The notes under the pieces are model-generated. The model had not been told where the DNA came from. It saw only the letters and a program-made list of their open reading frames with translations, and did no database searches. A program made the position numbers and the translations under genes. This document shows positions 2,069 through 20,341 of a stretch of DNA of 30,362 nucleotides, piece by piece (positions within the stretch are counted from its first letter, which is position 1; every line of letters begins with the position of its first letter). The DNA comes from Candidatus Aerophobetes bacterium Ae_b3b (GTDB lineage Bacteria > Aerophobota > Aerophobia > Aerophobales > AE-B3A): positions 1 through 30,362 of the forward strand of contig NJBP01000025.1 of the NCBI GenBank assembly GCA_005223085.1, read 5' to 3'.

Positions 2069-2113
2069 TTCTCTCGACCAATCATTATCTTTGGCAAACA
2101 CCACTGTCAGATT

Positions 2114-3603: not shown

Positions 3604-3639
3604 TTGTCTCACCACCTTTCCCTTGGATTTATTGTTTTC

Positions 3640-3917: not shown

Positions 3918-3964
3918 TCTATTTCACCACCTTTCATGAGATGTTGATCTAAAAATCGGGGCTC

Positions 3965-4318: not shown

Positions 4319-4333
4319 CTTTACACCTCCTTA

Positions 4334-4360: not shown

Positions 4361-4366
4361 AAAAAA

Positions 4367-4813: not shown

Positions 4814-4835
4814 TTTTGCACCATCCGCAATTGGT

Positions 4836-4850
4836 TGATAATGATTTTCA
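4836..4850 (-). promoter_or_regulatory. Fur-box-like operator at the fur promoter
   Basis: TGATAATGATTTTCA matches the 7-1-7 Fur box TGATAATNATTATCA at all but one position. It sits 5 bp downstream of the -10 element, over the expected transcription start and early leader of fur, the right place for auto-repression by steric block. Confidence 0.65.
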
Positions 4851-4855
4851 TTTTT

Positions 4856-4883
4856 ATTATACTCGATATGTAAAATTTGTCAA
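4856..4883 (-). promoter_or_regulatory. Sigma-70 promoter of fur
   Basis: On the minus strand, TTGACA (4878-4883), a 16-bp spacer and TATAAT (4856-4861): both hexamers are perfect consensus. The predicted start is near 4849, giving a leader of about 35 nt to the fur ATG at 4813. Confidence 0.8.
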
Positions 4884-5020
4884 CCCCTGGAATTAAATCG
4901 ACATGTGACCGAAATTGGTATAATACTCCCTGGTTAAATAAAAAGTCCGGGCAGCAAAGGACAACGAATATTAAAAAGTTAAGGATTGTTCAAAATGGAG
5001 TAGTTTCTATCAGGGCCTAG

Positions 5021-6307: not shown

Positions 6308-6312
6308 TTTCT

Positions 6313-7080
6313 TCACCTTTTAGTAAAATATGTTTGCAGAACTTCGGCCGGGGCAGCATAAGTACGCAATTGATTGCGTATATCTCCCAGAGTGAATCCC
6401 TTTTCTTTTAATATTTCTACCTCAGAGGCGATATTAGCCTCTTCCACCGGACCTCGACAACCGCAGCATGGTATGCCATAGCTCAGGCACCGTGCATTAC
6501 AGCCAGCAACCGTTATGGGTCCCAGACAGAGCTCACTTTTCTCCACTAAAAGACAGGTATTTTCATTTAGCTTGCACTCGGTACACACAGCATATTTTGG
6601 CAGAACCGGGATGTCTCCATGAACCAGAGAAGCAATTGCCTGCAGGAATTGTTCCTTCTCTATAGGACAGCCGGACACGGAAAAATCAACCTTTACGAAA
6701 CTATGAAGTGGTTGAGCAGGGATGCTCTTAAATATCTGCCCTCGAGGGCCGTAAACCTCATCCTTCAACCTCTGAGGTGAGACCTCGTTCTTCATAGCCG
6801 CCACTCCTCCCCAGACGGCGCAGGTGCCCAGGGCGATAAGAAGCCTTGATCTTTTTCTAATTTTCTTTAGCCACACCTCTTCCTCGGGTTGAACCACTGC
6901 TCCTTCCACAAAGGCTATGTCCAGATCACATTGCTCGTCATTTTCACTCATAGCAGTATGAAATGATCTAATATCCAGTACTTTAAGAATGTCCATAAGC
7001 TCGTCCTCGCAGTTGAGGATCACTATTTGCTCACCGGCACACCCGGTCATTCCGAACACTCCTACCTTTGGTTTCGCCAT
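6313..7080 (-). CDS. hydD: Group 3b-like [NiFe] hydrogenase small (delta) subunit
   Basis: 255-residue electron-transfer subunit linking the NiFe site to the diaphorase half. It has the small-subunit fold motifs GMTGCAGEQ (residues 11-19), GTCAVWGG (C87) and SGCPIE (C138) for the proximal cluster, then a C-terminal cysteine-rich part (CTEC, CLLVEKSELC, GCNARC, CCGC) for two more [4Fe-4S] clusters. The usual second Cys of the CxxC proximal motif is Glu17 here. There is no Tat signal, so it is cytoplasmic. Start ATG has AAAGGAG ahead; the gene follows hydG by 13 bp and overlaps the possible GTG start of hydA. Confidence 0.93.
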   Translation of the reverse strand: MAKPKVGVFGMTGCAGEQIVILNCEDELMDILKVLDIRSFHTAMSENDEQCDLDIAFVEGAVVQPEEEVWLKKIRKRSRLLIALGTCAVWGGVAAMKNEVSPQRLKDEVYGPRGQIFKSIPAQPLHSFVKVDFSVSGCPIEKEQFLQAIASLVHGDIPVLPKYAVCTECKLNENTCLLVEKSELCLGPITVAGCNARCLSYGIPCCGCRGPVEEANIASEVEILKEKGFTLGDIRNQLRTYAAPAEVLQTYFTKR

Positions 7081-7093
7081 AACTTTTTCTCCT

Positions 7094-7951
7094 TTATATC
7101 ATCTCTGGCAAATTAATGGCATCCCAGTAGGTAAATATGGGTCCATCAATACAGGTATATTTATAGCCGATGCTGCAGTGACCACATTTACCCACGCCGC
7201 ATTTCATTCTTCTCTCAAGGGACATCAGTATTCTATCCTTGGGAAGATTTCTCTCTAAAAGCTTTCTTAAAACAAATTTATACATAATGGGTGGTCCACA
7301 CACGGCAGCATAAGTTATCTCAGGATCAACCTTAACCGCATCAAATAGCTTGGTCACTACTCCAACTTGAGCTGGCCAGATTCCTTCCTCATCTTTGTCA
7401 ACGGTGAGAAGACATTTCATATCCGTTCGGTCCAGAAGACTCAATAGTTCATACTTAAAGAGCATTTCCTCAGAAATTTTTGTGCCCAACATAAGTATAA
7501 TCTCTTTGAATTTAGAACGGTTATCCAGAGCGTACCATAAAAGAGATCTTAAAGGAGCCATACCCAGACCCCCAGCAATAATTAAAAGGTTGTTTTTCTC
7601 CATTTCTTCCACCGGAAATCCGTTACCATAAGGGCCTCTTAAACCAACCAGAGAATTTAGAGGAAGTCTAAACAGAGCCTCTGTCACGCGGCCGATTTTC
7701 CTTACGCATAGTTCAATTACTTCTGGACGTGTAGGAGAAGAAGATATAGAAATAGGAGCTTCCCCCGTCCCAATGAGGCTTAATTCAACAAACTGACCTG
7801 GCCTGTAAGTAAAGCTCTGCCTTATTCCAGAATCCTCGAATCTGAGTTGAAACAACCGGTGATCCTCAATCTGAGGAAGAATCCGAACAATTCTGGCTAA
7901 GGATGGTTGGTAAATATTGTCCGCACCACTTGTTGAAGGATGGTTACTCAT
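7094..7951 (-). CDS. hydG: Hydrogenase gamma subunit, FAD/NAD(P)-binding reductase
   Basis: 285-residue flavoprotein of the ferredoxin-NADP reductase superfamily. FAD-binding barrel about residues 15-110 (RPGQFVELSL, GEAPISISSSP), NAD(P)-binding Rossmann fold about 115-235 (IAGGLGMAPLRSL, CGPPIMYKF), and a C-terminal [2Fe-2S] loop CGVGKCGHCSIGYKYTC. It passes electrons between NAD(P)(H) and the Fe-S chain of HydB/HydD. ATG at 7951 has AAGGAG 8 bases ahead and overlaps the hydB stop by 8 bp; a GTG at 7960 is too close to that site. A closely related gene occurs in the right-hand operon (17658-18491). Confidence 0.93.
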   Translation of the reverse strand: MSNHPSTSGADNIYQPSLARIVRILPQIEDHRLFQLRFEDSGIRQSFTYRPGQFVELSLIGTGEAPISISSSPTRPEVIELCVRKIGRVTEALFRLPLNSLVGLRGPYGNGFPVEEMEKNNLLIIAGGLGMAPLRSLLWYALDNRSKFKEIILMLGTKISEEMLFKYELLSLLDRTDMKCLLTVDKDEEGIWPAQVGVVTKLFDAVKVDPEITYAAVCGPPIMYKFVLRKLLERNLPKDRILMSLERRMKCGVGKCGHCSIGYKYTCIDGPIFTYWDAINLPEMI

Positions 7952-8972
7952 AACTGGCACTCCTTATTTTAGTCATTACTTCAACAATATCTATTTTTGC
8001 TGGACAGGACTGGATACATCGTCCACATCCAACGCAGCTTGGTCTTCCATATTGAGCCACGAAACCTCTCTGTTTATGAAAATATCTATTTTTAACCCTG
8101 GCGGATCTTTCACTCCTAAAATTAAGACCTCCGGCGACGAGAGCGTAATCTTTGAATAAACAGGAATCCCATTGCCTTCTGCGCTCACCAGTTTTGCCGT
8201 CCAAATTTAGCTGATCAAAGACATCGTAGCAATAACAGGTTGGACAAACCATGGAACAAGTGCCACAACTCAAGCATTTTTCTCCGATTTCTTCCCAAAT
8301 CTTGCTCTCATACTCCAGGTCCATTATCTCCGGCAAATTATAAAGTTCGAGATCTATTTTGAAATAATTTTTCCTCTCATTCGATTTCCTTTTGTATTCT
8401 GCTATGTCTTCTTTATCCACCTCTTTGAATAAAGATTGATTGGCCCGCACCATATCGTCTCCTAAACTAGTGGCAATTCTAACTAGATAGGAGTCATCGA
8501 TATCCGATAAGAATAGATCAAACCCATCCTCAACGAAATCTGTTTCCATCGAGCGGCAGAAACACATATCATCGGGGATACAACTGACCCCAATTATTGA
8601 TGTATTCTTCCTTCTGGTGAAATAGTAGTTATCTACATACGTGCCAGAAAAAACTAAATCAAGAATTTTTAGACCATGAATATCGCAAGAGTGGACTCCC
8701 AGAAGGACATATTTTTTGTTTAAATTATCTTGCGGTGGCTCATAACCCTTCTCGGGTGAAAACCTGAACATAGTCTCATTGGGCGGGAGAAAATATTTTT
8801 TGGGGGGCAGGATTGTTCTATTATAGTTAAGCTCAATTTTCGAGAGATCTTCAATTTTTGAGAATAGGTATGTATTTTCATCTTTTTTTATAGGAGCATG
8901 GATCTCCCCGAATTTGCTTAAGCCCCCCATGAACTTATCCAGGTTTTCTTTAGGCAGTTTAACTATTTGCAT
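7944..8972 (-). CDS. hydB: Hydrogenase beta subunit, 4Fe-4S electron-transfer protein
   Basis: 342-residue Fe-S protein of the sulfhydrogenase beta / anaerobic sulfite reductase A family. A conserved N-terminal domain (LPPKKYFLPPNE, then VLLGVHSCD with C96 and FCRSM) precedes two C-terminal ferredoxin modules, CLSCGTCSMVCPTCYC and CVGCGRCIQSCP. It relays electrons between HydG and the hydrogenase dimer or an external carrier. GGAGG lies 7 bases before ATG. As first gene of hydBGDA it starts 31 bp after the stop of the receiver-histidine kinase gene on the same strand, with no terminator between, so these regulators and the hydrogenase are probably one transcript. Confidence 0.93.
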   Translation of the reverse strand: MQIVKLPKENLDKFMGGLSKFGEIHAPIKKDENTYLFSKIEDLSKIELNYNRTILPPKKYFLPPNETMFRFSPEKGYEPPQDNLNKKYVLLGVHSCDIHGLKILDLVFSGTYVDNYYFTRRKNTSIIGVSCIPDDMCFCRSMETDFVEDGFDLFLSDIDDSYLVRIATSLGDDMVRANQSLFKEVDKEDIAEYKRKSNERKNYFKIDLELYNLPEIMDLEYESKIWEEIGEKCLSCGTCSMVCPTCYCYDVFDQLNLDGKTGERRRQWDSCLFKDYALVAGGLNFRSERSARVKNRYFHKQRGFVAQYGRPSCVGCGRCIQSCPAKIDIVEVMTKIRSASYE

Positions 8973-9003
8973 TTTTTTGCCTCCTTAAGACTCCTTCGAT
9001 ATT

Positions 9004-10128
9004 TTATCCGACAGAACTCTTTTCATTAGTCCCAGTAAACTTTGGCAGAAAGACAGTGAAGATACTTTCTTTCCCTTCCTCACTTCTCACTTCGATAGAG
9101 CCCCTATGAGCCTCCACAACTTTCTTGACAATAGATAATCCTAATCCGCTGCCAGTGATGTGCTTAGTTTTTTTATTTTTCACCCGGAAGAATTCGTCAA
9201 AGATAAAGGGGATATCTTTTTGAGGAATGCCTATCCCCGTATCAGATACTTCTATAACTACATAATCTCCTTCCCCTTTTGCCTTGACTGAAATCCTGCC
9301 TTCCTCATGGTTATAGTCTATGGCATTACGGAAGAGGTTGGTGAATACTCTTTCTATACTTAATTTCTCCCCTTTAATGAGGGGAAGATGGGCAGGGATA
9401 TTCACCTCTAGAGTAATCTTTTTGTTTTTTATCTTTTCCCTCAAGAGATCCACTGTCTTATAAAGAATTTGAGATAGATCCAGAAGTTCAAGGTTTTCTA
9501 ACATCCTGCCAGCTTCTATACGAGACATATCTAACCAATCTTTAATGAGGACTAAAAGGGTATTGATTTGACCACTAGCCTTTTCTAACATCCCCTTCTG
9601 CGGCTGAGTCAGTCTACCAACTATGCCGGCCCTAACTACCTCAAGATACTCTTGAACATCAATGAGAGGTCTTCGCAGTTCATGGGAGACCATGCTGATG
9701 AAGTTCTTTTCTATCTTTTCTTTTTCTCGGCGCAAAGAAAGAGATTCAAGGACAAGTTCCCTCCTTTCTAAACCTCTTTTTATGATAATCCGAAGCTCAT
9801 CGGGGGTAAATGGTTTGGGAAGAAAGTCATAGGCCCCGCGCTTCATGGCCTCAACAGCTGATTCTATAGTGGCATAACCGGTGATGATTATGGAGATGAT
9901 GGTGGAATCAATCTTCCTGATTTTCTCCAGAACCTCCATTCCACTAATTCCTGGCATTTTGAGATCAACCAGTACCAGATCAGGAGGGAATTCTCTTACC
10001 TTACGTAGACCATCGGCTCCATCGGCAGATGTCTCTGTGTGATATCCACTTTTACTAAGCACTTGCTGGCAGGCATTGCGCATAGTCTCTTCGTCATCAA
10101 TCACTAAAATAGTGGATTTTTTTGACAT
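9004..10128 (-). CDS. Response-regulator/histidine-kinase hybrid (REC-HisKA-HATPase)
   Basis: 374-residue soluble signalling protein with a receiver in front of a kinase. Receiver residues 5-120 with phospho-acceptor D55 (LVDLKMPG) and KPFTPDEL; HisKA with H149 in SHELRRPL; HATPase with N box NLFRNAIDYN, DTGIGIP and GSGLGLSIV. There are no membrane helices and no sensory PAS domain, so input must come through phosphotransfer to the receiver or a partner. Its receiver is very similar to that of the NtrC-type regulator encoded upstream. I use ATG 10128 (MSKKSTILVIDDEE); ATG 10152 and TTG 10182 are alternatives that overlap the previous gene. It sits between the double receiver and hydB in one orientation. 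Confidence 0.9.
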   Translation of the reverse strand: MSKKSTILVIDDEETMRNACQQVLSKSGYHTETSADGADGLRKVREFPPDLVLVDLKMPGISGMEVLEKIRKIDSTIISIIITGYATIESAVEAMKRGAYDFLPKPFTPDELRIIIKRGLERRELVLESLSLRREKEKIEKNFISMVSHELRRPLIDVQEYLEVVRAGIVGRLTQPQKGMLEKASGQINTLLVLIKDWLDMSRIEAGRMLENLELLDLSQILYKTVDLLREKIKNKKITLEVNIPAHLPLIKGEKLSIERVFTNLFRNAIDYNHEEGRISVKAKGEGDYVVIEVSDTGIGIPQKDIPFIFDEFFRVKNKKTKHITGSGLGLSIVKKVVEAHRGSIEVRSEEGKESIFTVFLPKFTGTNEKSSVG

Positions 10129-10159
10129 TGGTCTTTTCCCTAATTTTTCCATATCTACT

Positions 10160-10951
10160 CTATCTAGGGAGAAGTTTTTCAACCCGCTTTAGCAAATCAG
10201 CTGCCTTGATGGGTTTATCCACGAAATCATCTGCTTCCAGATACTCCCCGTCGCTCTGGGGAGAAAACTTAAAACCTGTCTTTTTAGTTACTCCGGTGAT
10301 CATAAGCACAGGGATTTTTTTAAGTTTAGGATCATGCTTAAGCTTGTAGCAGATGGTAAATCCATCATCCAATCTTTGCATCATCACGTCCAGAAGAATT
10401 AAATCCGGCTCCTCTTTTTTAATCTTCTCCATTGCCTCTTCTTTGTCATAGGCAGCTTCGACTTTATAGGACCCACTTTTTAGGATAGCCGTAGTTGCCT
10501 CCACAAAAGCAGGATCATCGTCGATGATAAGAATTTTTGCTTCTTCGTTCATTCTCCTCACCCCCTTAATCTTTCCCAGTTTTTTGAATACATCATGGAC
10601 GGCTAATCTCAGTTCTTCTCTGTCAAAAGATTTTATGTAGTAGTAGAAAATATCCTGTTCTCGCACCCTGGCTTCTAGCTCCGGGGTATTACGGGCAGCA
10701 GTCATAATTACGTCTATTTTTGGGTCAACTGTCCTTACGATGGGCAAGGCCTGGTAACCCTTCATTTCTGGTAGCTCAACATCGATGATGAGACAATCAA
10801 ACTTTATGTTTTTGAGTTTCTGCAGCCCATTGGTGAGCCCCTCACTTATTTCGACCTGGTATCCTTCACTGGCGAAAAGAGAAAGAAGCTCTTTGTGGGT
10901 CTCACGGTCAGAATTTATGATTAATACTTTTCCGCTTTTTTGGTAATACAT
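10160..10951 (-). CDS. Tandem double receiver-domain response regulator
   Basis: 263 residues with two CheY-like receivers and no output domain. Receiver 1 (residues 8-125) has D57 in LIIDVELPEM and Lys in YYIKSF, but its acidic pocket reads NSDR and not DD, so Mg binding may be weakened. Receiver 2 (138-263) is canonical: IDDD, D188 in LLDVMMQRLDDGF, ITG and DKPI. Such proteins act as phosphorelay intermediates, phosphate sinks or protein-binding switches. Start is ATG 10951 or GTG 10960; neither has a clear ribosome binding site. It is the first gene after a terminator and a sigma-54-like promoter. Confidence 0.88.
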   Translation of the reverse strand: MYYQKSGKVLIINSDRETHKELLSLFASEGYQVEISEGLTNGLQKLKNIKFDCLIIDVELPEMKGYQALPIVRTVDPKIDVIMTAARNTPELEARVREQDIFYYYIKSFDREELRLAVHDVFKKLGKIKGVRRMNEEAKILIIDDDPAFVEATTAILKSGSYKVEAAYDKEEAMEKIKKEEPDLILLDVMMQRLDDGFTICYKLKHDPKLKKIPVLMITGVTKKTGFKFSPQSDGEYLEADDFVDKPIKAADLLKRVEKLLPR

Positions 10952-10974
10952 TTTAATCACTATATAATTGTCTA

Positions 10975-10991
10975 TGCAATTTTTATACCAA
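10975..10991 (-). promoter_or_regulatory. Sigma-54-type promoter upstream of the signalling/hydBGDA operon
   Basis: The minus strand reads TTGGTATAAAAATTGCA: GG and GC dinucleotides exactly ten bases apart with the full TTGCA -12 box, matching YTGGCACGRNNNTTGCW at most conserved positions. The predicted start is near 10964, leaving a very short leader to the ATG at 10951 (or GTG at 10960). It lies between an intrinsic terminator and the double-receiver gene, and an NtrC-type activator is encoded immediately upstream. A weak sigma-70 reading of the same AT-rich stretch cannot be excluded. Confidence 0.55.
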
Positions 10992-11005
10992 ATTTTCTGA
11001 AGTTA

Positions 11006-11037
11006 CAAAAAAACCACCCGCTAGGCTCCGGGTGGTT
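11006..11037 (-). terminator. Rho-independent terminator after the NtrC-type regulator gene
   Basis: A perfect 9-bp stem (AACCACCCG / CGGGTGGTT, 11012-11020 with 11029-11037) and 8-nt loop, followed on the minus-strand transcript by a run of seven U (plus-strand A-run 11007-11013). It lies 42 bp beyond the regulator's stop codon and separates the sensor operon from the double-receiver/hydBGDA operon. Confidence 0.85.
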
Positions 11038-11078
11038 GATAAATAAAGAGCTATCAGTATATATTAATCTTTTTTCTT

Positions 11079-12503
11079 TTAGATTCCTTTTCCCTCCCTT
11101 GGAGAGTTTCTCCCCAATAATGGGAAATTATTCCCCAAATTTTCAGTTATGCGGTATTTTTTCATCTTGACACGCAGTGTCTTACGATCTACACCTAGAA
11201 GTTTAGCTGTTTGACTCTTATGCCATCCTGTCTCTTTGAGTATCTTTAAAATGTGTTCGGCCTCAACATCTATAAGGCGTTTGTGGTTTCCAGCCATAGG
11301 CCCAGGGGATAGATCAACCGCCAGTCCATAGTATGACAGATCAGAAGGCTCAATAACATTGCTTTTAGCCAATACTACGGCCCGCTCAATAGCATTCTCT
11401 AACTCTCTTACATTCCCCGGCCAGCTATACTCTGTTAGAGCCTTCATTGCTCTTGGGGAAATGCCGGTTAAGTTCTTTCCCCTCTTTTGATTATATTTTT
11501 TCAAGAAATAGTTGGCCAATTCTGGGATATCTTCCGGCCTTTCCCGCAGCAGCGGCAAGGTTATGGGAACGACACTCAATCTATAAAACAAATCCTCCCG
11601 AAATGTTTTTTCCTGAATAGCTTTTCTCAAGTTTTTGTTAGTAGCGGCAACAATTCGCACATCTATCTTAATGGTTTTTGAACTGCCTATCCTGGTAATT
11701 TCTCTTTCTTGAATTGCTCGCAGCAGTTTAGCTTGTACATTTGGTCCTATATTCCCAATCTCATCAAAGAACAACGTTCCTCCATTGGCTACCTCAAATC
11801 TACCGTGTTTGGTAGAGGCAGCATCGGTAAAAGAACCCTTAACGTGTCCAAAGAGTTCACTTTCAAAAAGATTTTCTACCAATGCACCACAGTCTACGAT
11901 GACGAATGGCTTATTCTTGCGCTGACTATGATAGTGTATCGCCTTGGCCACAAGTTCTTTGCCTGTACCGCTCTCTCCCAGAATGAGTACAGTACTATCA
12001 GTGGGCCCTACTCTCCTTATCAATTCATATACTTTTTGCATTACTTTACTTTTTCCAATAATGACCTCTGACTTACGCTTTACCTCCAGTTCCTGACGAA
12101 GGTAAATGTTCTCCAGAATTAATCTCTTTTTTTCCAGTGCCCTTTCTATAATTAGCCGAAACTCCTCTGGGGTAAATGGTTTGGGAAGAAAGTCGTAAGC
12201 GCCACGCCTCATAGCCTCAACAGCCGATTCTACGGTAGCATAACCGGTGATTACAACTACTGCTGTTTCTGGACTACTCTCTTTAATCTTCTCTAAAACT
12301 TCCATTCCATCAATACCGGGCATCTTTAAATCAAGGATGACTAAATCGAAGGATTTTTCTTTCAATAACTCCAATCCCTGGTATCCATCTTCTACTAGCT
12401 TGACATTGTGTCCTTGACGGGAGAGTATCTGCTTACACGAATCACGCATCACTTCCTCATCATCGATTACCAGGATATTGGCTAAAATAGACAGCTTAGC
12501 CAT
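11079..12503 (-). CDS. NtrC-family sigma-54-dependent response regulator (HupR/HoxA-like)
   Basis: 474-residue transcriptional activator. Receiver residues 8-122 with D58 (LDLKMPG); AAA+ domain about 145-370 with Walker A GESGTGKE (176-183), Walker B GGTLFFDEI, and a sigma-54 contact loop reading GSFTDA (223-228) where GAFTGA is usual; C-terminal Fis-type helix-turn-helix (DVEAEHILKILKE...GVDRKTLRVKM). Its gene overlaps the PAS kinase gene by 22 bp, as expected for a cognate pair, and follows a group 2-type hydrogenase, the arrangement of HupT/HupR and HoxJ/HoxA systems. In those systems the regulator controls hydrogenase operons; here the sigma-54-like promoter directly downstream is the obvious candidate target. 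Confidence 0.92.
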   Translation of the reverse strand: MAKLSILANILVIDDEEVMRDSCKQILSRQGHNVKLVEDGYQGLELLKEKSFDLVILDLKMPGIDGMEVLEKIKESSPETAVVVITGYATVESAVEAMRRGAYDFLPKPFTPEEFRLIIERALEKKRLILENIYLRQELEVKRKSEVIIGKSKVMQKVYELIRRVGPTDSTVLILGESGTGKELVAKAIHYHSQRKNKPFVIVDCGALVENLFESELFGHVKGSFTDAASTKHGRFEVANGGTLFFDEIGNIGPNVQAKLLRAIQEREITRIGSSKTIKIDVRIVAATNKNLRKAIQEKTFREDLFYRLSVVPITLPLLRERPEDIPELANYFLKKYNQKRGKNLTGISPRAMKALTEYSWPGNVRELENAIERAVVLAKSNVIEPSDLSYYGLAVDLSPGPMAGNHKRLIDVEAEHILKILKETGWHKSQTAKLLGVDRKTLRVKMKKYRITENLGNNFPLLGRNSPREGKGI

Positions 12504-13792
12504 GATTTCCCTTTTGTTTCCATAGGTAATTTAATGGTAAAAGTGGCCCCTTTCCCTACCTTACTTTTCACCTCTATGCTTCCCTTATGTCTTTCAATGA
12601 TTCCGGCAGTGATTGCCAGTCCCAGACCGGTTCCGTGACCCGCTTTTTTAGTGGTAAAGAATGGCTCGAACAATCTTTTTATATGGGCTGGTGTGATTCC
12701 ACAACCGTTATCGGTGATGGTAATTTCTAAAAATCGACTATCCGGGAGAGCATCAGTGGCAATGATCAGGCTTCCTTTTCCATCCATTGCTTCTGCAGCG
12801 TTTAAAACGATGTTCATAAAGGCCTGCTGAAGTTGAGATCTGTCTCCCATAATATTGGGTAGGGAGGGCTGGAATTTCTTGGTAATTTTGATGTTATGAA
12901 ACAGCGCCTGATCTTTAACTAACGATAGGGTCTCTTCCAGTACTACATTTATGCCTATAGGTTCCACCTTAGGCTGGGGCTGGCGGGCAAAATCGAGAAG
13001 TCTTTTCACGATGTCCTTACAGCGGGTGGCCTCTTTTATTATTCTCTCCGCATTGGCTCTTTTCGAATCATCCACGTTTAGATCCTCTAGCAACAGGTGA
13101 CTGTATACTAAGATTCCGCCCAGAGGATTATTTATTTCGTGGGCTACACCAGCAGACAACTGACCTATGACGGCTAATCTCTCTGAATGAATCAACTGGC
13201 TCTGAAGGTCTTTAAGCTCTTTATAGGCTCTTTCCAGCTCTTGAGCCTTGGTTCTCTCGGCTTCTGTTGCGGCAGCTTCAGCGAGAAGCCATTTAGTCTC
13301 TCGTAGATCCTTGGCTACTCCGATGACACCGATGATTTCTCCCTCAGAGTTTCTCATTACCGAGCTACTCAAAGTCATGGGGATTTTTTCTCCGGATTTA
13401 CTTTTAAAGTCAATCTCTAAATCCTGGATGGATGATTCCTTAAGCTTGCTTAAGTAAGATTCATTAAAAGGTCTTCTCTTTTCTTTTGGACTGGCAAGGA
13501 TCATTTTAGCCGTTTTTTTGATTATTTCTTCTTTCTTATATCCCAGAAGATCTAAGGTGGCCTGATTGACCATGGTTATCTTTTCCTCAGAATCCACTAC
13601 AATCAGGGCATCTACCATGCTCTTGAGAATGTTTTCCGTGAATTCTTGAGCCTGAAGAAGTTCTCTATTCTTTCTTTCAATTTCTGCCTGGTTATTGGCC
13701 AGTTCGGCATAGATAGTTTCCATCCTTCTGATGATCTCAATCCACATGCTCTCTTGTAATTGCTCCTCAGATAGGCTCACGCTCTTTTTCAT
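12482..13792 (-). CDS. Soluble PAS-domain histidine kinase (HupT/HoxJ-like)
   Basis: 436-residue cytoplasmic kinase. An N-terminal helical segment of about 50 residues leads into a PAS domain (about 55-165, MVDALIVVDSEEKI, LGYKKEEII), a coiled coil (165-205), then HisKA with H218 in GVAHEINNPLGG (NtrB type) and a HATPase domain (NIVLNAAEAM, DNGCGI, GHGTGLGLAI). No membrane segments, so it senses an internal signal or a protein partner. Its ATG overlaps the stop of the hydrogenase large subunit as ATGA, which implies translational coupling. This supports a model in which the hydrogenase signals H2 to the kinase, as HupUV/HoxBC do to HupT/HoxJ; direct contact is inferred. Confidence 0.92.
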   Translation of the reverse strand: MKKSVSLSEEQLQESMWIEIIRRMETIYAELANNQAEIERKNRELLQAQEFTENILKSMVDALIVVDSEEKITMVNQATLDLLGYKKEEIIKKTAKMILASPKEKRRPFNESYLSKLKESSIQDLEIDFKSKSGEKIPMTLSSSVMRNSEGEIIGVIGVAKDLRETKWLLAEAAATEAERTKAQELERAYKELKDLQSQLIHSERLAVIGQLSAGVAHEINNPLGGILVYSHLLLEDLNVDDSKRANAERIIKEATRCKDIVKRLLDFARQPQPKVEPIGINVVLEETLSLVKDQALFHNIKITKKFQPSLPNIMGDRSQLQQAFMNIVLNAAEAMDGKGSLIIATDALPDSRFLEITITDNGCGITPAHIKRLFEPFFTTKKAGHGTGLGLAITAGIIERHKGSIEVKSKVGKGATFTIKLPMETKGKSWLSCLF

Positions 13793-15312
13793 AAGTATCC
13801 CCTCTTAATTATCCCCTGCACTGCCAACTCAAAAGTAGCTATGGGTTTATTCATTTTCAAAGCATGTACAGTACAGAAAAGACAAGGATCGTAGGATCTG
13901 ATGATATGAGCAATCTCGACGGGATTCTTCTCATCTTCCACTGAGGTACCAATTAGAGCCTCCTCAACTGCACCTGGATTGCCGTGAGAGTCCCTTGGTG
14001 AAACATTCCAGGTAGTGGGAGTTATCACCTGGTAGTTCTTAATTTTGTCCTTTTCAATTATGATCCAGTGACCGAGTACGCCTCTGGCTGCTTCAGTCAA
14101 TCCTTTACCCTCTGCCTCTTTTGGCTTTTCTGGTTTTATATAAAAAGGCTGGGAGGGGTCGATTTCCTCGAGCCAGATCTTTAGTTGCTTCAGGAGTCTC
14201 ACTCCCTCGTGGAGTCGTGCCAGAACTCTGGTATAGACGCTGGGCCCTAAATCACTTACCAGGTTTAAAACCAGGGGATCCCTGTCGTTTATCATCCTGG
14301 CTAGTGGACCGACTTCCACCACATTCCCGCTATAACGCGGTGATTTAGCCCAACTATAGGCCCCGGGTTTATCAACATCGGGTTCGGTCACTCCCTCAAA
14401 AGGATGTCTTCCTTTTTCATAACCCTTAAGCCAGGAGTATTTAATGTCCTCAGTGATTTTTCCCTCATTAAAGGACTTAAATTCTCCGTCAAAATAACCA
14501 CTCTTAAGCCAGGTCCTGCCGTCTGCCAGCTCATATCCCCCGGAGGAGAGGAACTTGCCGGGCCCTTTACCTATTTTATCTAGGCCAAACTGGGGTGCGG
14601 ATTTGATAAAAATTCCCAGGTCACTATTCTCGTGACTATCTTCTCCCATCCAGAAATCGATATCTGGTAAATTTTTATTTTCCAGCCAGCCTTTAATCTC
14701 ACTGCCAAGCAAATCCTGTTCCAAAAAATTTTGGAATTCTACCAGGATACCCTTTGCTCTAATAATTTCGCTTAGGTTGAATGGTCGGGTAGTCCCACCA
14801 GGCTGTAAGGCAAGAGTATTGGGCCATTTTCCGGCGAATAGACCCAAAACCCCAAGAAGATTAGTCCGCGCCCTAATGAATTTTGAATAGGAACTGCCTT
14901 CAAAAGGGGCAAATCGCTTTGCCAATTCTCTGTGTGCGCGACTAGGAAGGTATTTTTTATTGACTAAATCTACCACGAAGAAAAGATAAAAGTGGGTAAG
15001 ATGGCTGAGCAAAACTTCAGTGGCCAGAATTATATTTCTAGCTAAATAAGCATTCGGAGGCATTTTTGCCTTGAAGGCGACTCTCAAGGCATTAGAACAG
15101 GCGGTGGAATGGGATGCACTACAGATGCCACAGATTCGAGGGGTAAAGACCAGAGCATCCATAGGGTCTCTTCCTTTGAGCAGCCTTTCAAATCCTCTAA
15201 ACATCACCCCGGAAGCATAGGCCTCTGTCACCTTGCCATTTTCTAATCCCACTTTTATCTCCAGATCTCCTTCCGCACGATTAAATGGACTTATCTTAAT
15301 AGTTTTTTTCAA
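13789..15312 (-). CDS. Group 2-type [NiFe] hydrogenase large subunit (putative H2 sensor)
   Basis: 507 residues with the Ni-binding pairs C61/C64 (RICGICSASHST) and C477/C480 (DPCLFCTVH). The GKWPNTLALQPGGTT segment is typical of group 2 uptake/sensory enzymes (HupL, HupV/HoxC). A 24-residue extension follows His483, resembling the tail cleaved from catalytic hydrogenases; known regulatory hydrogenases lack such a tail, so processing and enzymatic activity remain possible. Start is TTG at 15312 with AAGGA 8 bases ahead and no nearby ATG. It follows the small subunit by 16 bp and is coupled to the PAS kinase. The alternative role is a soluble H2-uptake enzyme that happens to share a regulatory operon. 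Confidence 0.93.
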   Translation of the reverse strand: MKKTIKISPFNRAEGDLEIKVGLENGKVTEAYASGVMFRGFERLLKGRDPMDALVFTPRICGICSASHSTACSNALRVAFKAKMPPNAYLARNIILATEVLLSHLTHFYLFFVVDLVNKKYLPSRAHRELAKRFAPFEGSSYSKFIRARTNLLGVLGLFAGKWPNTLALQPGGTTRPFNLSEIIRAKGILVEFQNFLEQDLLGSEIKGWLENKNLPDIDFWMGEDSHENSDLGIFIKSAPQFGLDKIGKGPGKFLSSGGYELADGRTWLKSGYFDGEFKSFNEGKITEDIKYSWLKGYEKGRHPFEGVTEPDVDKPGAYSWAKSPRYSGNVVEVGPLARMINDRDPLVLNLVSDLGPSVYTRVLARLHEGVRLLKQLKIWLEEIDPSQPFYIKPEKPKEAEGKGLTEAARGVLGHWIIIEKDKIKNYQVITPTTWNVSPRDSHGNPGAVEEALIGTSVEDEKNPVEIAHIIRSYDPCLFCTVHALKMNKPIATFELAVQGIIKRGYL

Positions 15313-15328
15313 CTTTTATGTCCTTGAA

Positions 15329-16300
15329 CTATTCTACATCAACTCTTTTGAATGAGACCGCATTTACCAGGAGTCTCTTAGGACAGGCTAACTTAGCCAG
15401 ACCACTTATTCCCACATACCAGGCCTTGGGGACATCAAGAGGTAGAGTGGTGGGAATATCTCCAATTTTCTCTGTTTCAAAGAAAGGTACAAATCCATCG
15501 GGAAACTTGGGGGAGGTGCAGGAAATACAGGGGAATCCCCCTCTGGTGCAACTTCCTGTTCGGCCCAGCCATAATCTCTCGTTACAATCGGATTCACACT
15601 GGGTAGCTTTGCAGCCTAGATTTTCAAACAGGCATCCTTGCTGTGAATACTCCTCGGCCGAGGCCTTAAATTCGTAATATTCATTTCGGGGACAGGCGTG
15701 ATGGGCTAATTTGCTGTAAAATACCTCTGGTCGTTGGTATTTATCTAGCCCGCTGCTATCTAGTTTTCCCGAAATTAGAGCAATAAGAGTTTCCACGATC
15801 CAATCTGGATGAGCGGGACATCCAGCAATATTGATCACAGGAAGACCGGACCTAGAGGTATAATTTGGCCCAAGTAGACCACCCTTTTTCTCATGAAGAA
15901 ATTGTAATCCCGTGGCCTCCATAGGATTGTTGCTGGCAGCCGGAATTCCACCGAAAGACGAGCAGGTACCTATGGCCATGGTGTAATGGGCAACTTTTGC
16001 CAGGTCCAAAATCCAGTCCTTGAAGGGACGATCATGAAAGATGAAGTACTTACCTGTTCCCTTGGGACCATGGTAAATTGCTCCCTCCACCATTAATACG
16101 TCCAGCCTTTCTTTCCCAGACTTTAACCTATCAAAGATTTCTAATACCTCTTCCCCCATGGTTGGGCTCAAGTCCGGATGCCACACGAACCTGGCGCCCA
16201 GCATTTCAAGAGCTGTAAGAATGTCCGGCTGGTCTGCATTCAGAAAAGAAATAGTGGAACCCCCACAGCAGCCACTTTGCAGCCACAGTAGATTTACCAT
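15329..16300 (-). CDS. Group 2-type [NiFe] hydrogenase small subunit
   Basis: 323-residue Fe-S subunit without a Tat signal, so the enzyme is cytoplasmic as in group 2. Motifs: WLQSGCCGGSTISFL at residues 6-20, GTCSSFGG (C113), AGCPAHPDW (C161), HHACPRNEYYEF, and a terminal set CNERLW...SCTRGGFPCISCTSPKFPD for the medial and distal clusters. The proximal CxxC is C12xxS15, with an extra Cys at 11. ATG at 16300 has GGAG 5 bases ahead; an in-frame ATG at 16339 overlaps the -10 element and can be dismissed. First gene of the sensor operon. Confidence 0.92.
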   Translation of the reverse strand: MVNLLWLQSGCCGGSTISFLNADQPDILTALEMLGARFVWHPDLSPTMGEEVLEIFDRLKSGKERLDVLMVEGAIYHGPKGTGKYFIFHDRPFKDWILDLAKVAHYTMAIGTCSSFGGIPAASNNPMEATGLQFLHEKKGGLLGPNYTSRSGLPVINIAGCPAHPDWIVETLIALISGKLDSSGLDKYQRPEVFYSKLAHHACPRNEYYEFKASAEEYSQQGCLFENLGCKATQCESDCNERLWLGRTGSCTRGGFPCISCTSPKFPDGFVPFFETEKIGDIPTTLPLDVPKAWYVGISGLAKLACPKRLLVNAVSFKRVDVE

Positions 16301-16337
16301 AATGTCTCCTCTCTCTTCGAACCACAAATCCACCATC

Positions 16338-16365
16338 ATTATAGAAGATCATAGAAACTAGTCAA
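16338..16365 (-). promoter_or_regulatory. Sigma-70 promoter of the hydrogenase-sensor operon
   Basis: On the minus strand, TTGACT (16360-16365), a 16-bp spacer, then TATAAT (16338-16343). The expected start near 16331 gives a leader of about 31 nt to the ATG at 16300. Only one base differs from the double consensus, so the sensor block is probably expressed constitutively at a fair level. Confidence 0.75.
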
Positions 16366-16820
16366 ACTACATTGATGGTACCAGAAAAGTATTTAGAAGA
16401 TTTATACGCGTATCGAGGGACTTTCCCCAAAGGAGCCTTATATCAGCCACCTTAACGAGTCAGCTCTGCAGGCTTTGAATTTAGGGGGAGCAGTGAGCGA
16501 AGCGAGCGTTGAGGGGGAATGTTTTCCCCCTCAAGAATAGTTGAGGAAAAGAAAGACGTGATGTCTGAGGAGCGAAGCGACGAGCTCTGCCTGTTTTTGA
16601 ATTTGGGGGGAGCAGCGTAGCGTCGAGGGGGGATGTTTCCCCCCTCGAGATCCTCATGTCTTTCCCGAAACGAGAAGACGAGCAGAAGCAATCCAAAGTC
16701 GATATACAGCGACGAAGGGGAAGAGTCCCGAGATATTTCTTGATAAGGAAAGGAGTTGTGGGTAAAAAATCTATTTGTATCTAACTTTCGCAACTTCGCA
16801 CGCCTGGATTTGGAATTTTC
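16366..16820. other. Divergent intergenic region with hairpin repeats and no supported gene
   Basis: This gap separates the minus-strand sensor operon from the plus-strand energy-converting hydrogenase operon. It contains two hairpin-bearing repeats (16460-16649), a short plus-strand open frame (16656-16784) that ends at TAA in the frame of the following HydB-like gene, and an AAAGGAG motif near 16748 not followed by a useful start codon. I found no convincing plus-strand promoter. The region takes the place where the N-terminal 70 or so codons of the HydB-like gene would be expected. Confidence 0.6.
16460..16649. repeat. Two direct repeats each with an 11-bp perfect hairpin and TGTT loop
   Basis: Copy A (about 16460-16535) and copy B (about 16581-16649) share AGCTCTGC, TTTGAATTT, GGGGGAGCAG and a terminal hairpin. 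Hairpin A is TTGAGGGGGAA/TTCCCCCTCAA (16509-16519 with 16524-16534); hairpin B is TCGAGGGGGGA/TCCCCCCTCGA (16623-16633 with 16638-16648). Both loops are TGTT, and the stem differences are compensatory. Copy B is also bracketed by imperfect arms (AAAGAC..TGAGGA and TCCTCATGTCTTT). Neither hairpin is followed by a U-run, so terminators are unlikely; a REP/MITE-type element or structured RNA fits better. Confidence 0.75.
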
Positions 16821-17642
16821 TTGGGTGAATATTTCGCTTCAAATTTTACCTCTTCCAGCGAGGAGAAAATTATCCTGGGAGCAAAGACATGCGATCTGGA
16901 ATCCTTGAGAATCCTGGACAGCGTTTACGCCAATGGAGATTTTAAAGACCCCTTTTATATTGAGGAAAGAGGCAATATAATCCTGATTTCCAGTGATTGT
17001 ACTAGGGCCCAAGATACGTGTTTCTGTAGTTTACTAGATCTAACTCCCTATCCCAAAGAGGGGTTTGACTTAAATCTTTCGCTGGTAGAGGGAGGTTTTG
17101 TTCTGGAAGTAGGCTCGGAAAAAGGTAAAAAAATAGTTGAGGAAAATAAGGAATTAATGGAAGAGGCAGGCGAAGAGCAATTGAGCCAAAGAGAAAAGAG
17201 ACGCCAGGATGTGCTCAATGAGGTAAAAGAAATTAACAAAGATTTTGATTCTGAGAGAAGTTTTCGAGAAGTCATAAAGGATAGCTTTAATTCTCCGGTT
17301 TGGGAAGAAGCTGTTGAGAAATGCGTGGACTGCGGCGGATGTAATCATATTTGTCCTACCTGTCGTTGTTTTCTTCTCTTTGACGAGAAAGGGAAAAAGG
17401 GGTTTAGCAGAACCTCCCTCTGGGATGCCTGTTTATATACAGGTTTTGCTCGGGTTGCCGCCGGGGCCAATCCCAGGATAAAACTTTCCCAAAGATTTGC
17501 CAATCGCCTCCTTTGTAAATTTGGCTTCTTTCCGGAAAACCTGGGACTGGATGCCTGTACTGGCTGCGGGAGATGTATCAGCGTCTGTATAGGTAAGATA
17601 GATATGAGAGAAGTGGTAAGAGATTTAAGAGTGAAAGTCTAA
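16821..17642 (+). CDS. HydB-like 4Fe-4S subunit, N-terminally short
   Basis: 273 residues homologous to HydB of the left-hand hydrogenase: EKIILGAKTCDLESL (C24), DTCFCSLL, then ferredoxin modules CVDCGGCNHICPTCRC and CTGCGRCISVC. Relative to HydB (342 residues, equivalent Cys at 96) about 72 N-terminal residues are missing. The only start is TTG at 16821 with no ribosome binding site, and the same frame is closed by TAA at 16782. It is either a 5'-truncated gene in the course of decay or a natural short form. It begins the long plus-strand operon and would act with the HydG-like flavoprotein as the NAD(P)H-side electron entry to the membrane hydrogenase. Confidence 0.75.
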   Translation: MGEYFASNFTSSSEEKIILGAKTCDLESLRILDSVYANGDFKDPFYIEERGNIILISSDCTRAQDTCFCSLLDLTPYPKEGFDLNLSLVEGGFVLEVGSEKGKKIVEENKELMEEAGEEQLSQREKRRQDVLNEVKEINKDFDSERSFREVIKDSFNSPVWEEAVEKCVDCGGCNHICPTCRCFLLFDEKGKKGFSRTSLWDACLYTGFARVAAGANPRIKLSQRFANRLLCKFGFFPENLGLDACTGCGRCISVCIGKIDMREVVRDLRVKV

Positions 17643-17657
17643 CCACGGGATGAGGAG

Positions 17658-18491
17658 ATGGAAAGTCCTTATCAACCGACAAAAGCAAAAATTTTAAAGA
17701 TAATTCCTGAAACTCCTAACATCAAGACATTTGTTCTTAAGCCCGAAGATTCCCTGGAATTTAAGGCAGGACAATTCATCCAGCTTACCGTGCCCGGATT
17801 GGGAGAGGCTCCCTTCACTCCTTCAAGCTCCCCTTATGAAAAAGAAAAGATTGAAGTTACTGTGATGAAGGTGGGTAGCGTAACTTCGGTCCTCCATAGC
17901 TTAAAAGAAGAAGATACCATAGGAATACGGGGACCTTATGGAAAGGAATATCCTCTTTCTGACTTTGAGGAGAAGGAAACCTTAATCGTGGGAGGAGGAG
18001 TAGGTCTTGCTCCTTTAAGATCACTCTTTCTTGCTCTTGCCAAAAATATCGAAAGATACAAGAAGGTTCTTTTCTGCTACGGAGCCAAAACCCCGGAGGA
18101 TATCGTCTATAAAGGGGCTGTCTTAAAGAACTGGCAAGATCTACATCCGGAAAAGATACATTTTCGCATCACCGTGGATAAGGCTGATGGAGAATGGAAA
18201 GGAAAAGTTGGATTGGTCACCACCACCCTGGACAACCTGGAGGAAGAGATCGAAGACATACAAAAAAGTCCGGTTATAGTCTGTGGACCTCCTATAATGA
18301 TGAAGTTCACTACCTTTAAGCTGCTTGATTTAGGCTACCGTCCACCCAATATTTTCCTGAGCATGGAAAAGAATATGTCCTGCGGGATAGGTAAATGTGG
18401 ACATTGTCAGACGGGAAAATACCTTGTTTGTAGAGATGGACCGGTGCTTACCTACGATAAAATAAAGGATATTCCTACTATCTGGGACTGA
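17658..18491 (+). CDS. HydG-like FAD/NAD(P)-binding reductase subunit
   Basis: 277-residue flavoprotein: FAD-binding barrel (KAGQFIQLTVPGLGEAPF, about residues 40-60), Rossmann NAD(P) site (VGGGVGLAPLRSL near 112-124; CGPPIMMKF), and C-terminal [2Fe-2S] loop CGIGKCGHCQTGKYLVC. It is a paralogue of HydG at 7094-7951 with full family length. It follows the HydB-like gene by 15 bp and precedes a polyferredoxin gene by 6 bp. In this position it should exchange electrons between NAD(P)(H) and the Fe-S chain of the energy-converting hydrogenase, taking the place that NuoE/F/G hold in complex I. ATG follows GGGATGAGGAG closely. Confidence 0.92.
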   Translation: MESPYQPTKAKILKIIPETPNIKTFVLKPEDSLEFKAGQFIQLTVPGLGEAPFTPSSSPYEKEKIEVTVMKVGSVTSVLHSLKEEDTIGIRGPYGKEYPLSDFEEKETLIVGGGVGLAPLRSLFLALAKNIERYKKVLFCYGAKTPEDIVYKGAVLKNWQDLHPEKIHFRITVDKADGEWKGKVGLVTTTLDNLEEEIEDIQKSPVIVCGPPIMMKFTTFKLLDLGYRPPNIFLSMEKNMSCGIGKCGHCQTGKYLVCRDGPVLTYDKIKDIPTIWD

Positions 18492-18497
18492 ATAAAA

Positions 18498-18980
18498 ATG
18501 GCCAAGCGACTATTTATTGATCTGGATAAATGTGCAGATTGTGAGGAATGTACGGTAAAGTGTAGATGTAGTTACCCTTATCATCCACAAAACAATGGAA
18601 TAATCTACCTCAGGGAGTGGTTACATTTCCAGCTCATTTGCCGAAAATGTGAGGATGCTCCTTGCCTTAATGCTTGTCGATATGAGGCCCTGGAGAGGTC
18701 AGAAAATGATATTATAAAAAGGAATAATTTTCTCTGTGTAGGATGCAAATCCTGTGCTCTAGCCTGTCCTTTTGGAACCATTTATTTTGAAATGATCCCC
18801 TTTCTTACCTTTAATTGTGATCTCTGCGAGGGAAGATTGGAGGAAAAAGAGATGCCTCTTTGCAGCAAAACCTGTCCCAAAGAAGCCATAGAATACGGGG
18901 ATTTTGAGGCTGATCCTAAAGGAAACAGGCATCTTTTGAACAATGTAGTGGTTCAGGTGACCCCCTGGAAAAAGGTATAA
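18498..18980 (+). CDS. Polyferredoxin electron-transfer subunit (HycB/CooF-like)
   Basis: 160-residue protein with sixteen cysteines in four groups: CADCEECTVKC (C12, 15, 18, 22), CRKCEDAPCLNAC, CVGCKSCALACP and CDLCEGRL...CSKTCP, giving four [4Fe-4S] clusters. This layout matches the HycB/HydN/CooF family that wires dehydrogenases to membrane-bound hydrogenases. It lacks membrane helices or a signal peptide. Its TAA is 3 bp before the NuoH-like start. Here it probably bridges the HydB/HydG-like diaphorase to the NuoI/NuoB-like chain. Confidence 0.9.
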   Translation: MAKRLFIDLDKCADCEECTVKCRCSYPYHPQNNGIIYLREWLHFQLICRKCEDAPCLNACRYEALERSENDIIKRNNFLCVGCKSCALACPFGTIYFEMIPFLTFNCDLCEGRLEEKEMPLCSKTCPKEAIEYGDFEADPKGNRHLLNNVVVQVTPWKKV

Positions 18981-18983
18981 GTG

Positions 18984-19913
18984 ATGGCGGCTAACATTTT
19001 TTACTTTATCGTTTTTCCTGGCTTTCTTTTTACTGCCGTGGTGGGACTCTTAGTAAGCTGGGTGGATAGAAAAATCACGGCCCGTATTCAGTGGAGGGTT
19101 GGACCTCCGTGGTATCAGAATTTCGTTGACTTTTTTAAACTTCTGGGTAAGGAAACTATTGTACCCCGGGGGGCTGGGCGGATAGGCTTTTTGTTTGCTC
19201 CCTTAATGGGGTTAATTGGAGTAACTCTGGTATCCCTCATTCTCTGGCAAATGAATCTCAATCCCAACAGGTCCTTTATGGGAGATGTTATCGTACTTAT
19301 CTACCTTTCCATTTTACCTGCTCTAGCCATCATCATAGGTGGTTCTTCCTCTGCCAATCCTCTGGGAGCTATAGGAGCATCGAGGGAGATGAAATTAATT
19401 TTGGCTGATGAACTTCCCTTTATTATGGCTATCTTTACTCCCTTGGTTAAGATTGGTAGCCTCAAGGTCGGTTCCATCATCACTTATCAGCTAAACCATG
19501 GCATGATGTTTACTCATCATCTTTCTTCGGTAATTGCCTTAGTAGTGGCCTTTTTATGTATGCAGGCAAAGCTTACCCTTGTTCCCTTTGATATACCGGA
19601 AGCTGAGCAGGAGATTATGGCCGGTCCTTATATAGAGTATTCGGGTCCTCTCCTGGCCTTATTTAAATTAACTCGGGCCATGATGTTGTTTGCTATGCCG
19701 GTTTTTCTTATCACTATCTTTTTAGGGGGGATGCAGTTTAACGGATGGGCTAGCGGCTGGTCAGTTGTTAAATATCTGGTTATCCTCATTCTCATAATAC
19801 TCCTAAAAAATACCAACCCTCGTTTGCGAATAGATCAGGCACTAAAGTTTTTCTGGCTAAGGATGTTTCCCTTATCCTGTATAGGGTTCGTTCTGGCCCT
19901 GTTGGGACTATAA
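18984..19913 (+). CDS. NuoH/MbhM-like membrane anchor subunit
   Basis: 309-residue membrane protein of the NuoH/HyfC/MbhM/EchB family, with about eight hydrophobic helices. The loop after the first helix carries DRKITARIQWRVGPPWYQN, the family signature that faces the hydrogenase module, and FDIPEAEQEIMAGPYIEYSG is the second conserved loop with its string of acidic residues. It anchors the NuoB/NuoD-like pair and forms the entry of the ion pathway. I choose ATG 18984, 8 bases after AAAGG, over GTG 18981. Confidence 0.93.
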   Translation: MAANIFYFIVFPGFLFTAVVGLLVSWVDRKITARIQWRVGPPWYQNFVDFFKLLGKETIVPRGAGRIGFLFAPLMGLIGVTLVSLILWQMNLNPNRSFMGDVIVLIYLSILPALAIIIGGSSSANPLGAIGASREMKLILADELPFIMAIFTPLVKIGSLKVGSIITYQLNHGMMFTHHLSSVIALVVAFLCMQAKLTLVPFDIPEAEQEIMAGPYIEYSGPLLALFKLTRAMMLFAMPVFLITIFLGGMQFNGWASGWSVVKYLVILILIILLKNTNPRLRIDQALKFFWLRMFPLSCIGFVLALLGL

Positions 19914-19916
19914 ACA

Positions 19917-20327
19917 ATGAACAAGCTCTGGGCATTAAAGAAATCCATCTGGGTCTATCATCTCTGTTCCGGATCATGTAATAATTGCGACATTGAGATT
20001 CTGGATTGTCTCACTCCCAAATTTGATCTGGAAAGGTTTGGTATTCTTCTGGTGGGAAGCATTCGGCATGCCGATGCGATACTAGCTACTGGGTCGATCA
20101 GCCGAAAGGCTCTTCCCAGAATAAAAAGAGTTTATGAGCAGATGCCTCAGCCCAAATTGGTCATTGCTGTGGGAGGGTGTGCCTGCAGCGGCGGAATTTT
20201 CAAAAATGCCTACAACATTGTGGGACCCTTCGATAAAATTGTCCCGGTGACTGCCTATGTTCCCGGCTGCCCTCCTAAACCGGAGGCCATCATCGATGGG
20301 GTGGTAAAGGTAATTAATAGTCTGTAG
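19917..20327 (+). CDS. NuoB-like small subunit of group 4 hydrogenase
   Basis: 136-residue small subunit holding the single proximal [4Fe-4S] cluster. All four ligands are visible: C21 and C24 in SGSCNNCDIE, one in GGCACSGG and one in PGCPPKP. Unlike the other two small subunits in this window, the CxxC pair is canonical. Length and motifs fit EchC/MbhJ/HycG. It follows the NuoH-like gene by 3 bp; the ribosome binding site is weak, so translation is probably coupled. It passes electrons to the NuoD-like catalytic subunit. Confidence 0.93.
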   Translation: MNKLWALKKSIWVYHLCSGSCNNCDIEILDCLTPKFDLERFGILLVGSIRHADAILATGSISRKALPRIKRVYEQMPQPKLVIAVGGCACSGGIFKNAYNIVGPFDKIVPVTAYVPGCPPKPEAIIDGVVKVINSL

Positions 20328-20341
20328 AAAGGAAACTTGGG

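Follow-up and report, generated by a model that had tools for sequence, protein, structure and literature searches.

Gene content of the locus

We have analyzed a whole contig of 30,362 nucleotides (NJBP01000025.1, hereafter the window) that belongs to the metagenome-assembled genome (MAG) of Candidatus Aerophobetes bacterium Ae_b3b (2.04 Mb, 88.6% complete). The minus strand of the window carries two consecutive operons that together have the appearance of a hydrogen-sensing control block placed before the hydrogenase that it would control. The first codes for the small and large subunits of a sensory-type [NiFe] hydrogenase, a PAS kinase and an NtrC-type regulator. The second, located after a terminator, codes for a double receiver, a receiver-kinase and the products of hydB, hydG, hydD and hydA. 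A first-pass annotation had described these two operons with their ATGA coupling, regulator overlap, terminator and hydBGDA set, and all of these elements were found on the minus strand, to which the coordinates refer unless indicated otherwise. No RNA of the Rfam collection and no tRNA was found in the window. Among the relatives of this genome, one at the order level (G013) was deposited as Candidatus Aerophobetes Kmv34, and others are likewise named Candidatus Aerophobetes.

The small subunit (15329-16300; PF01058 and PF14720) is of the HupU/HoxB type, lacks a twin-arginine translocation signal and ends in a HupU-type C-terminal tail, PKAWYVGISGLAKLACPKR. Its open reading frame extends to 16339, and the ATG at 16300 gives a protein of 323 amino acids with the N-terminus MVNLLWLQ. 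This ATG is most likely the start, because a sigma70-like promoter of the sensor operon (TTGACT-16-TATAAT, 11 of 12 matches, ending 38 bp before the ATG) occupies 16365-16338. The large subunit (13789-15312, 507 amino acids; PF00374, trees and alignment) extends 24 amino acids beyond the motif DPCLFCTVH. Its gene is overlapped by 4 nucleotides (ATGA) by that of a soluble HoxJ/HupT-like histidine kinase (12482-13792) with a predicted N-terminal helix at residues 9-58 and PAS, HisKA and HATPase domains. The kinase gene is overlapped in turn, by 22 nucleotides, by the gene of an NtrC-type sigma54 activator (11079-12503), made of a receiver, an AAA+ domain with a GSFTDA loop and a Fis-type helix-turn-helix. 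An intrinsic terminator (11012-11037) with a 9 bp stem and a T run separates both operons.

The first gene of operon 2 (10160-10960) was annotated as a double receiver. Two receivers are indeed present and there is no DNA-binding domain, but only receiver 2 is intact, receiver 1 being degenerate, as its acidic pair is replaced by IINSD. It is followed by a receiver-histidine kinase (9004-10182), with an orthologue 83% identical in the same place in another Aerophobota genus (G004). Next come hydB (7944-8972, iron-sulfur subunit), hydG (7094-7960, FAD/NAD(P) subunit), hydD (6313-7080, small subunit) and hydA (5021-6316, [NiFe] large subunit with DPCISCSVH). Their best NCBIfam matches were the beta, gamma, delta and alpha subunits of sulfhydrogenase (group 3b type), all under the curated equivalog cut-offs. 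The complete hydBGDA gene set and a HydA with CxxC motifs at either end place the enzyme in group 3b.

Phylogenetic position of the hydrogenase

The small subunit was approximately 50% identical to HupU/HoxB, including the tail specific to HupU. In a tree of the concatenated small and large subunits (30 rows) the window lineage appeared as sister to HupUV/HoxBC (94/93), and a grouping with group 2a was rejected (P value of the approximately unbiased test, p-AU, 0.0018). In an enlarged tree, which also included a deep relative without kinase (L169) and another 2c-like enzyme (L170), the clade linked to kinases (window lineage plus HupUV/HoxBC) was recovered with 100/100, the grouping with 2a was rejected at p-AU 7e-59, and 2a, 2c and L169 all fell outside the clade. 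Inside it, the sister versus the basal-paraphyletic order was supported by 77/43 only. The trees rule out that the enzyme is a group 2a hydrogenase, and group 2c was discarded as its members branch elsewhere. The sensing role that the first-pass annotation gave to this hydrogenase agrees with the position of both subunits in the kinase-linked sensory clade and not in a catalytic one. L169 itself (contig C33 of genome G1035, 14923-17524) is a deep-branching group 2 hydrogenase without adjoining kinase and with the proximal region GATDNGC, and is useful as an outgroup when tracing how H2 sensing arose.

The lineage was found, among the matches listed, in MAGs labelled as Aerophobetes, Desulfobulbaceae and other Deltaproteobacteria, Syntrophaceae, Spirochaetes, Planctomycetota and Nitrospinota, labels from which we infer that its members are mostly anaerobes. 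Of 17 genomes sampled in the phylum of the window, 3 have a close large subunit. The figures were 1 of 392 in the phylum of the spirochaete locus described below (L032) and 3 of 395 in that of locus L029; the lineage is therefore rare and its sampling thin. The viral contigs searched had no relative.

A kinase N-terminus shared with HoxJ and HupT

The N-terminal piece of the kinase (64 amino acids) was compared with 72,556 plasmids, and at E<=1e-4 the matches were exclusively kinases located beside hupUV/hoxBC. Seventy kinase frames adjacent to sensors have a signature of the type W-I-E-V-I-x2-M-D-x2-Y-x2-L, and the window kinase has the HoxJ/HupT segment W-I-E-V-I..Y-A-D-L..LE-x-KN. With the clade shared with HoxBC/HupUV, apart from 2a and 2c, and an adjoining kinase with this signature, the hydrogenase falls with group 2b. 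Every member of the lineage located on a sufficiently long contig has an adjoining kinase.

Across 25 kinases, the N-terminal signature was more conserved than the PAS domain (mean majority fraction 0.63 vs 0.47). It was retained in kinases without PAS (G013, L031 and L033) and located after the PAS in others (L028, L039 and L131). AlphaFold2 predicted a single helix ahead of the PAS, with moderate confidence there (predicted local distance difference test, pLDDT, of ~47-71). Because several partner kinases lack PAS yet all keep the N-terminal helix, this helix may be the docking and signal-entry site between the sensor hydrogenase and the kinase. The kinase core differs from that of HoxJ, as the insertion after the H-box is absent in the window, G008 and G013. 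The sensing N-terminus appears joined to varied cores and outputs: an NtrC-type regulator in the window, a REC-HD-GYP protein in G676 and hybrid kinases in L028, L029 and L039. The G676 locus (L130, contig C13, 8817-14598) combines the sensor lineage with a hybrid kinase and the REC-HD-GYP protein, a wiring that suggests a cyclic di-GMP output.

Promoters and regulator

No sigma70-like site was found on the same strand between the operons. Instead, a sigma54-like promoter (TTGGTATAAAAATTGCA, GG-N10-GC) is located at 10975-10991, ahead of operon 2. Its score was reached in 0.2% of the trials on the same strand under a Markov model of the intergenic gap. Within the end of the regulator gene (11100-11137), 109-146 bp upstream of the sigma54-like site, there is a candidate enhancer formed by two dyads 21 bp apart, TGGGGAATAATTTCCCA and TGGGGAGAAACTCTCCA, of the form TGGGGA-N5-TTCCCA/TCTCCA. 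The chance value of the tandem was 0.0007, to be taken as weaker since the settings were picked after seeing the sequence. A third copy with one mismatch (3850-3866), within a small coding frame, was taken as chance. We also looked for a HupR/HoxA-type TTG-N5-CAA site ahead of the sigma54-like sites of the window and L032 and found none.

The regulator has the REC, Sigma54_activat and HTH_8 domains and the GAFTGA-type loop (GSFTDA) of an NtrC-type activator, and rpoN is present in the genome. We considered the GSFTDA loop as a possible defect and dropped the idea, as the genome has only three full-length sigma54 activators and all read GxFTDA. The receiver of the regulator was only 28% identical to that of HoxA, a regulator that is active when unphosphorylated (PMC10073562).

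Conservation of gene order and the relay genes

A neighbourhood survey, proposed together with the first-pass annotation, recovered the same six-gene order in a second phylum, at locus L032 of Spirochaetes bacterium RBG_16_67_19 (a single further example of the six genes). This comparison was the strongest test of the link between the operons. The identities to the window proteins were 45% for the histidine kinase, 56% for the NtrC-type regulator, 35% for the double receiver and 39% for the receiver-kinase. Again in this case a sigma54-like site (GCGGCATGCCATTTGCA, 8904-8920) is located some 30 nucleotides ahead of the double receiver, and a sigma70-like sequence can be read ahead of the small subunit. 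L032 differs from the window in having a large subunit without tail, a GSFTGA loop in the regulator and, instead of hydBGDA, a bifurcating group 3c set downstream (HdrA/NuoE-, NuoF-, HdrA-, MvhG- and MvhA-type genes, plus a maturation protease). Partial orders were found too: double receiver, receiver-kinase and hydBGDA in G004, and small subunit, large subunit, kinase and regulator in G013.

The regulator and the receiver-kinase have receivers 62% identical to each other, the highest value of the 91 pairs among the 14 receivers of the genome (mean 31%, standard deviation 7.5). This likeness fits a single kinase addressing both proteins. The first domain of the double receiver, which lacks the acidic pair in L032 as well, looks non-phosphorylatable; the second was closest to the stand-alone receivers preceding a hydrogenase on contig C29 of the same genome. 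As DNA-binding domains are absent from both, the relay proteins more probably act on the activity of proteins than on transcription.

Similar genes were observed in other operons. On contig C29 (L016, 538-6243) a pair of stand-alone receivers is found in one operon-like run with another [NiFe] hydrogenase, a maturation protease and genes resembling MetV and MetF; in its best stretch this hydrogenase is 47% identical to the large subunit of the window. In a Syntrophaceae MAG (L118, contig C318 of G103, 3642-9193) the order is MetV-MetF, receiver, receiver, receiver-kinase and MetV-MetF; there is no sensor hydrogenase, and the same type of relay is tied to methylene-tetrahydrofolate reductase-like genes. 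A Planctomycetota MAG (L119, contig C53 of G100, 2980-9110) has hydBGDA, protease, receiver and kinase, with the sensor lineage elsewhere in the same MAG (L033). Finally, L132 (contig C61 of G010, Aerophobota) is an [FeFe]-hydrogenase-type operon (HydA-like frames with a NuoG-like N-terminus, and NuoF) with a kinase, a receiver, a receiver-kinase and a Rex-like gene.

Comparison with known systems

The window system resembles HoxBC-HoxJ-HoxA of Cupriavidus necator (group 2b) in its soluble small and large subunits, the N-terminal signature of the kinase, the NtrC-type regulator and the sigma54 target promoters (PMC10073562). HoxBC was ~50% (small subunit) and ~42% (large subunit) identical to the window proteins. 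However, the window has an adjoining group 3b enzyme as probable target and two extra relay proteins. The HupUV-HupT-HupR system of Azospirillum, Afipia and others shares the three-part logic, with identities to the window counterparts of ~50% for HupU and up to 54% for the N-terminus of HupT. It differs in the order kinase-HupU-HupV, in the uptake hydrogenase that is often nearby and in the absence of a double receiver. The putative, diguanylate cyclase-linked group 2c enzymes are also soluble group 2 hydrogenases with a proposed sensing role (PMC5037454), but the members of Ideonella and G1156 branch with 2a and adjoin a maturation protease and other signalling genes.

Among 75 proteobacterial sensor loci (55 of them with at least 15 kb) there was no hydBGDA or other group 3b enzyme and no double receiver nearby, and 26 of the 75 have the small subunit of a membrane-bound hydrogenase. 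The layout had been called unusual, and this holds for the combination of a group 3b enzyme and the relay, seen in none of the 75. It does not hold for the control of a group 3 enzyme by an H2 sensor, which is not itself new, as in C. necator the soluble, NAD-reducing hydrogenase is driven by HoxBC-HoxJ-HoxA (PMC10073562).

Proposed model and alternatives

Our analysis indicates that the locus is probably an H2-sensing control block placed before its target hydrogenase, with sensor, kinase and sigma54 regulator followed by the operon of the relay proteins and hydBGDA. The small and large subunits would form a soluble sensor of H2, from a lineage of anaerobes that branches beside HoxBC/HupUV or basal to them. 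Sensor and kinase would be made at a steady level from the sigma70 promoter and would form a complex by contact through the N-terminal helix of the kinase. In response to H2, the kinase would set the phosphorylation of the NtrC-type regulator, which may bind the tandem dyad as an enhancer ~109-146 bp upstream of the sigma54 promoter and switch on operon 2. The same kinase probably addresses the receiver-kinase, whose receiver resembles that of the regulator. The relay would in this direction form a second branch that, having no DNA-binding part, would most likely act on protein activity. The idea of the first-pass annotation that operon 1 senses H2 and drives operon 2 is in this way partly supported, by the sensory clade, the kinase signature, the sigma54-like promoter with its dyad, rpoN and the recurrence in L032. 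Its branched relay keeps the receiver-kinase, with the closest receiver of the genome to that of the regulator, but loses strength in the double receiver, with a first domain that looks non-phosphorylatable, and in that the pair is separable from the sensor.

Several observations weigh against the model of a sensor controlling hydBGDA. In the C. necator sensor there are three [4Fe-4S] clusters, of which two have four Cys, and Gln replaces the His conserved elsewhere (PMC5665086). All 69 large subunits sampled from group 2b have this Gln and end at DPCxxCxxH without extension, and all 64 parsed 2b small subunits have the proximal CxxC. The window and all scored lineage members keep the His. The second Cys of the proximal cluster is replaced in the lineage by Asp, Glu or Ser (SGCCGGS in the window instead of SGGCGGC). 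Besides, the 24-amino-acid tail after the final His of the window large subunit could mean processing like that of a catalytic enzyme. At the level of DNA, we ourselves chose the weights and settings behind both the sigma54 score and the test of the dyads, a tandem dyad like that of the window was sought in L032 and not found, and the sigma54-like site of the window leaves the double receiver with a leader of a few to ~13 nucleotides, in which no ribosome site is clear. Lastly, relatives of the double receiver and receiver-kinase are found in operons of the hydBGDA, MetVF and [FeFe] types that lack a sensory hydrogenase, so that the pair is a separate module. The parallel with HupUV/HoxBC drawn by the annotation stands for the clade and the kinase signature, but from its sequence the hydrogenase is a deep-branching variant, a putative group 2b-like sensor in which three 2b marks are missing, and not a standard member.

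These points feed two of the alternatives. The enzyme might be a catalytic soluble group 2 hydrogenase with an Asp/Glu/Ser-ligated proximal cluster, the kinase reading its redox output or a partner and not H2 binding as in HoxBC. The retained His, the tail and the lost Cys speak for it. Replacements of this Cys in the databases have been tabulated (PMC4070099). The second proximal Cys is Asp in a catalytic group 1h enzyme (PDB 5AA5) and Asn in Huc, of group 2a (PDB 7UTD), in which all three clusters are [3Fe-4S] (PMC10017518); a deep group 2 hydrogenase free of kinase exists as well (L169). Huc and the 1h enzyme, however, are not linked to kinases and belong to another clade, and 2a, 2c and L169 are all left out of the kinase-linked clade at 100/100. 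The tail is absent in L028, L029, L032, L033 and L039 and of erratic length elsewhere (4 amino acids in L131, 6 in L130, 8 in G013, 15 in G008, 16 in L031 and 24 in the window), the lineage members with enough contig all adjoin a kinase, and the operon has no protease, electron-acceptor or membrane gene. We regard a catalytic role as quite unlikely. Slightly less improbable, but still unlikely, is that the sensor operon is real while operon 2 obeys other inputs, their adjacency being due to chance or co-inheritance and the receiver and receiver-kinase genes being ordinary passengers of anaerobic redox operons. Operon 2 does have its own promoter beyond a terminator, a receiver and a kinase are found without sensory hydrogenase in the operons of hydBGDA (G100), MetV-MetF (G103) and [FeFe] hydrogenase (G010), and two stand-alone receivers precede the C29 hydrogenase of the same genome. 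Yet the six-gene order is identical in two phyla despite different targets, a sigma54-like site stands directly ahead of the double receiver in both, and the receivers are alike across the two operons.

The regulator could also have as main target the operon of a group 4-Mrp hydrogenase (16821 onward), divergent from the sensor operon, and not hydBGDA. This is very improbable, since the region 16300-16900 has no good sigma54 site (best 0.72) and no near match to the dyad, and two dispersed repeat-like elements lie between both operons.

Neighbouring genes and other hydrogenases of the genome

The divergent operon (16821-29857, plus strand), not included in the first-pass annotation, codes for a third [NiFe] hydrogenase, with HydB- and HydG-like genes, NuoB/C/D/H/I-like subunits and then Mrp-type antiporter subunits. 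Its large subunit has CxxC motifs at both ends (ERICGICSTSH and DPCYCC), and in the first gene of the operon the part coding for the N-terminus of HydB is missing. Judging from these genes it is a group 4-type ion-pumping complex, possibly linked to NAD(P)H. Between the sensor and group 4 operons there are two copies (16511-16532 and 16625-16646) of a dispersed palindrome resembling repetitive extragenic palindromes, GAGGGGGNATGTTTNCCCCCTC, with 23 copies in the genome versus 0 for the reversed control pattern.

Immediately after hydA there is a gene of the FUR family (4367-4813, minus strand) with a perfect TTGACA-16-TATAAT promoter (4883-4856). The region 351-4318 of the same strand contains two MinD-like ATPases with 4Fe-4S inserts, together with small proteins of the NifX/DUF5320 type and others rich in Gly and Tyr. 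A second group 3-type hydrogenase of the genome, with HydB/HydG-like neighbours, is found on contig C8 (L017), its large subunit ending at DPCFSCSVH. The reading of its in-frame TGA as selenocysteine was rejected, as this TGA is the stop right after that motif.

Implications for hydrogen sensing

A broader reading, possible although we hold it as doubtful, is that the six genes are a portable H2-response block of anaerobes that fronts different bidirectional or bifurcating hydrogenases. Control would be twofold, the regulator acting on the synthesis of these hydrogenases and the second relay on their activity. Its sensor, with an Asp/Glu/Ser-ligated proximal cluster, would come from the lineage that gave rise to the aerobic HupUV/HoxBC sensors.

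To our knowledge, the NiFe H2 sensors studied are from H2-oxidising Proteobacteria, and the control by H2 of reversible group 3 enzymes is largely undescribed. The locus would add a related, deep-branching lineage of sensors in likely anaerobes, tied to reversible group 3 enzymes. This lineage points to the N-terminal helix of the kinase as the site of sensor docking and signal entry, and its altered proximal-cluster ligand provides a natural test of the role of the cluster potential in sensing.

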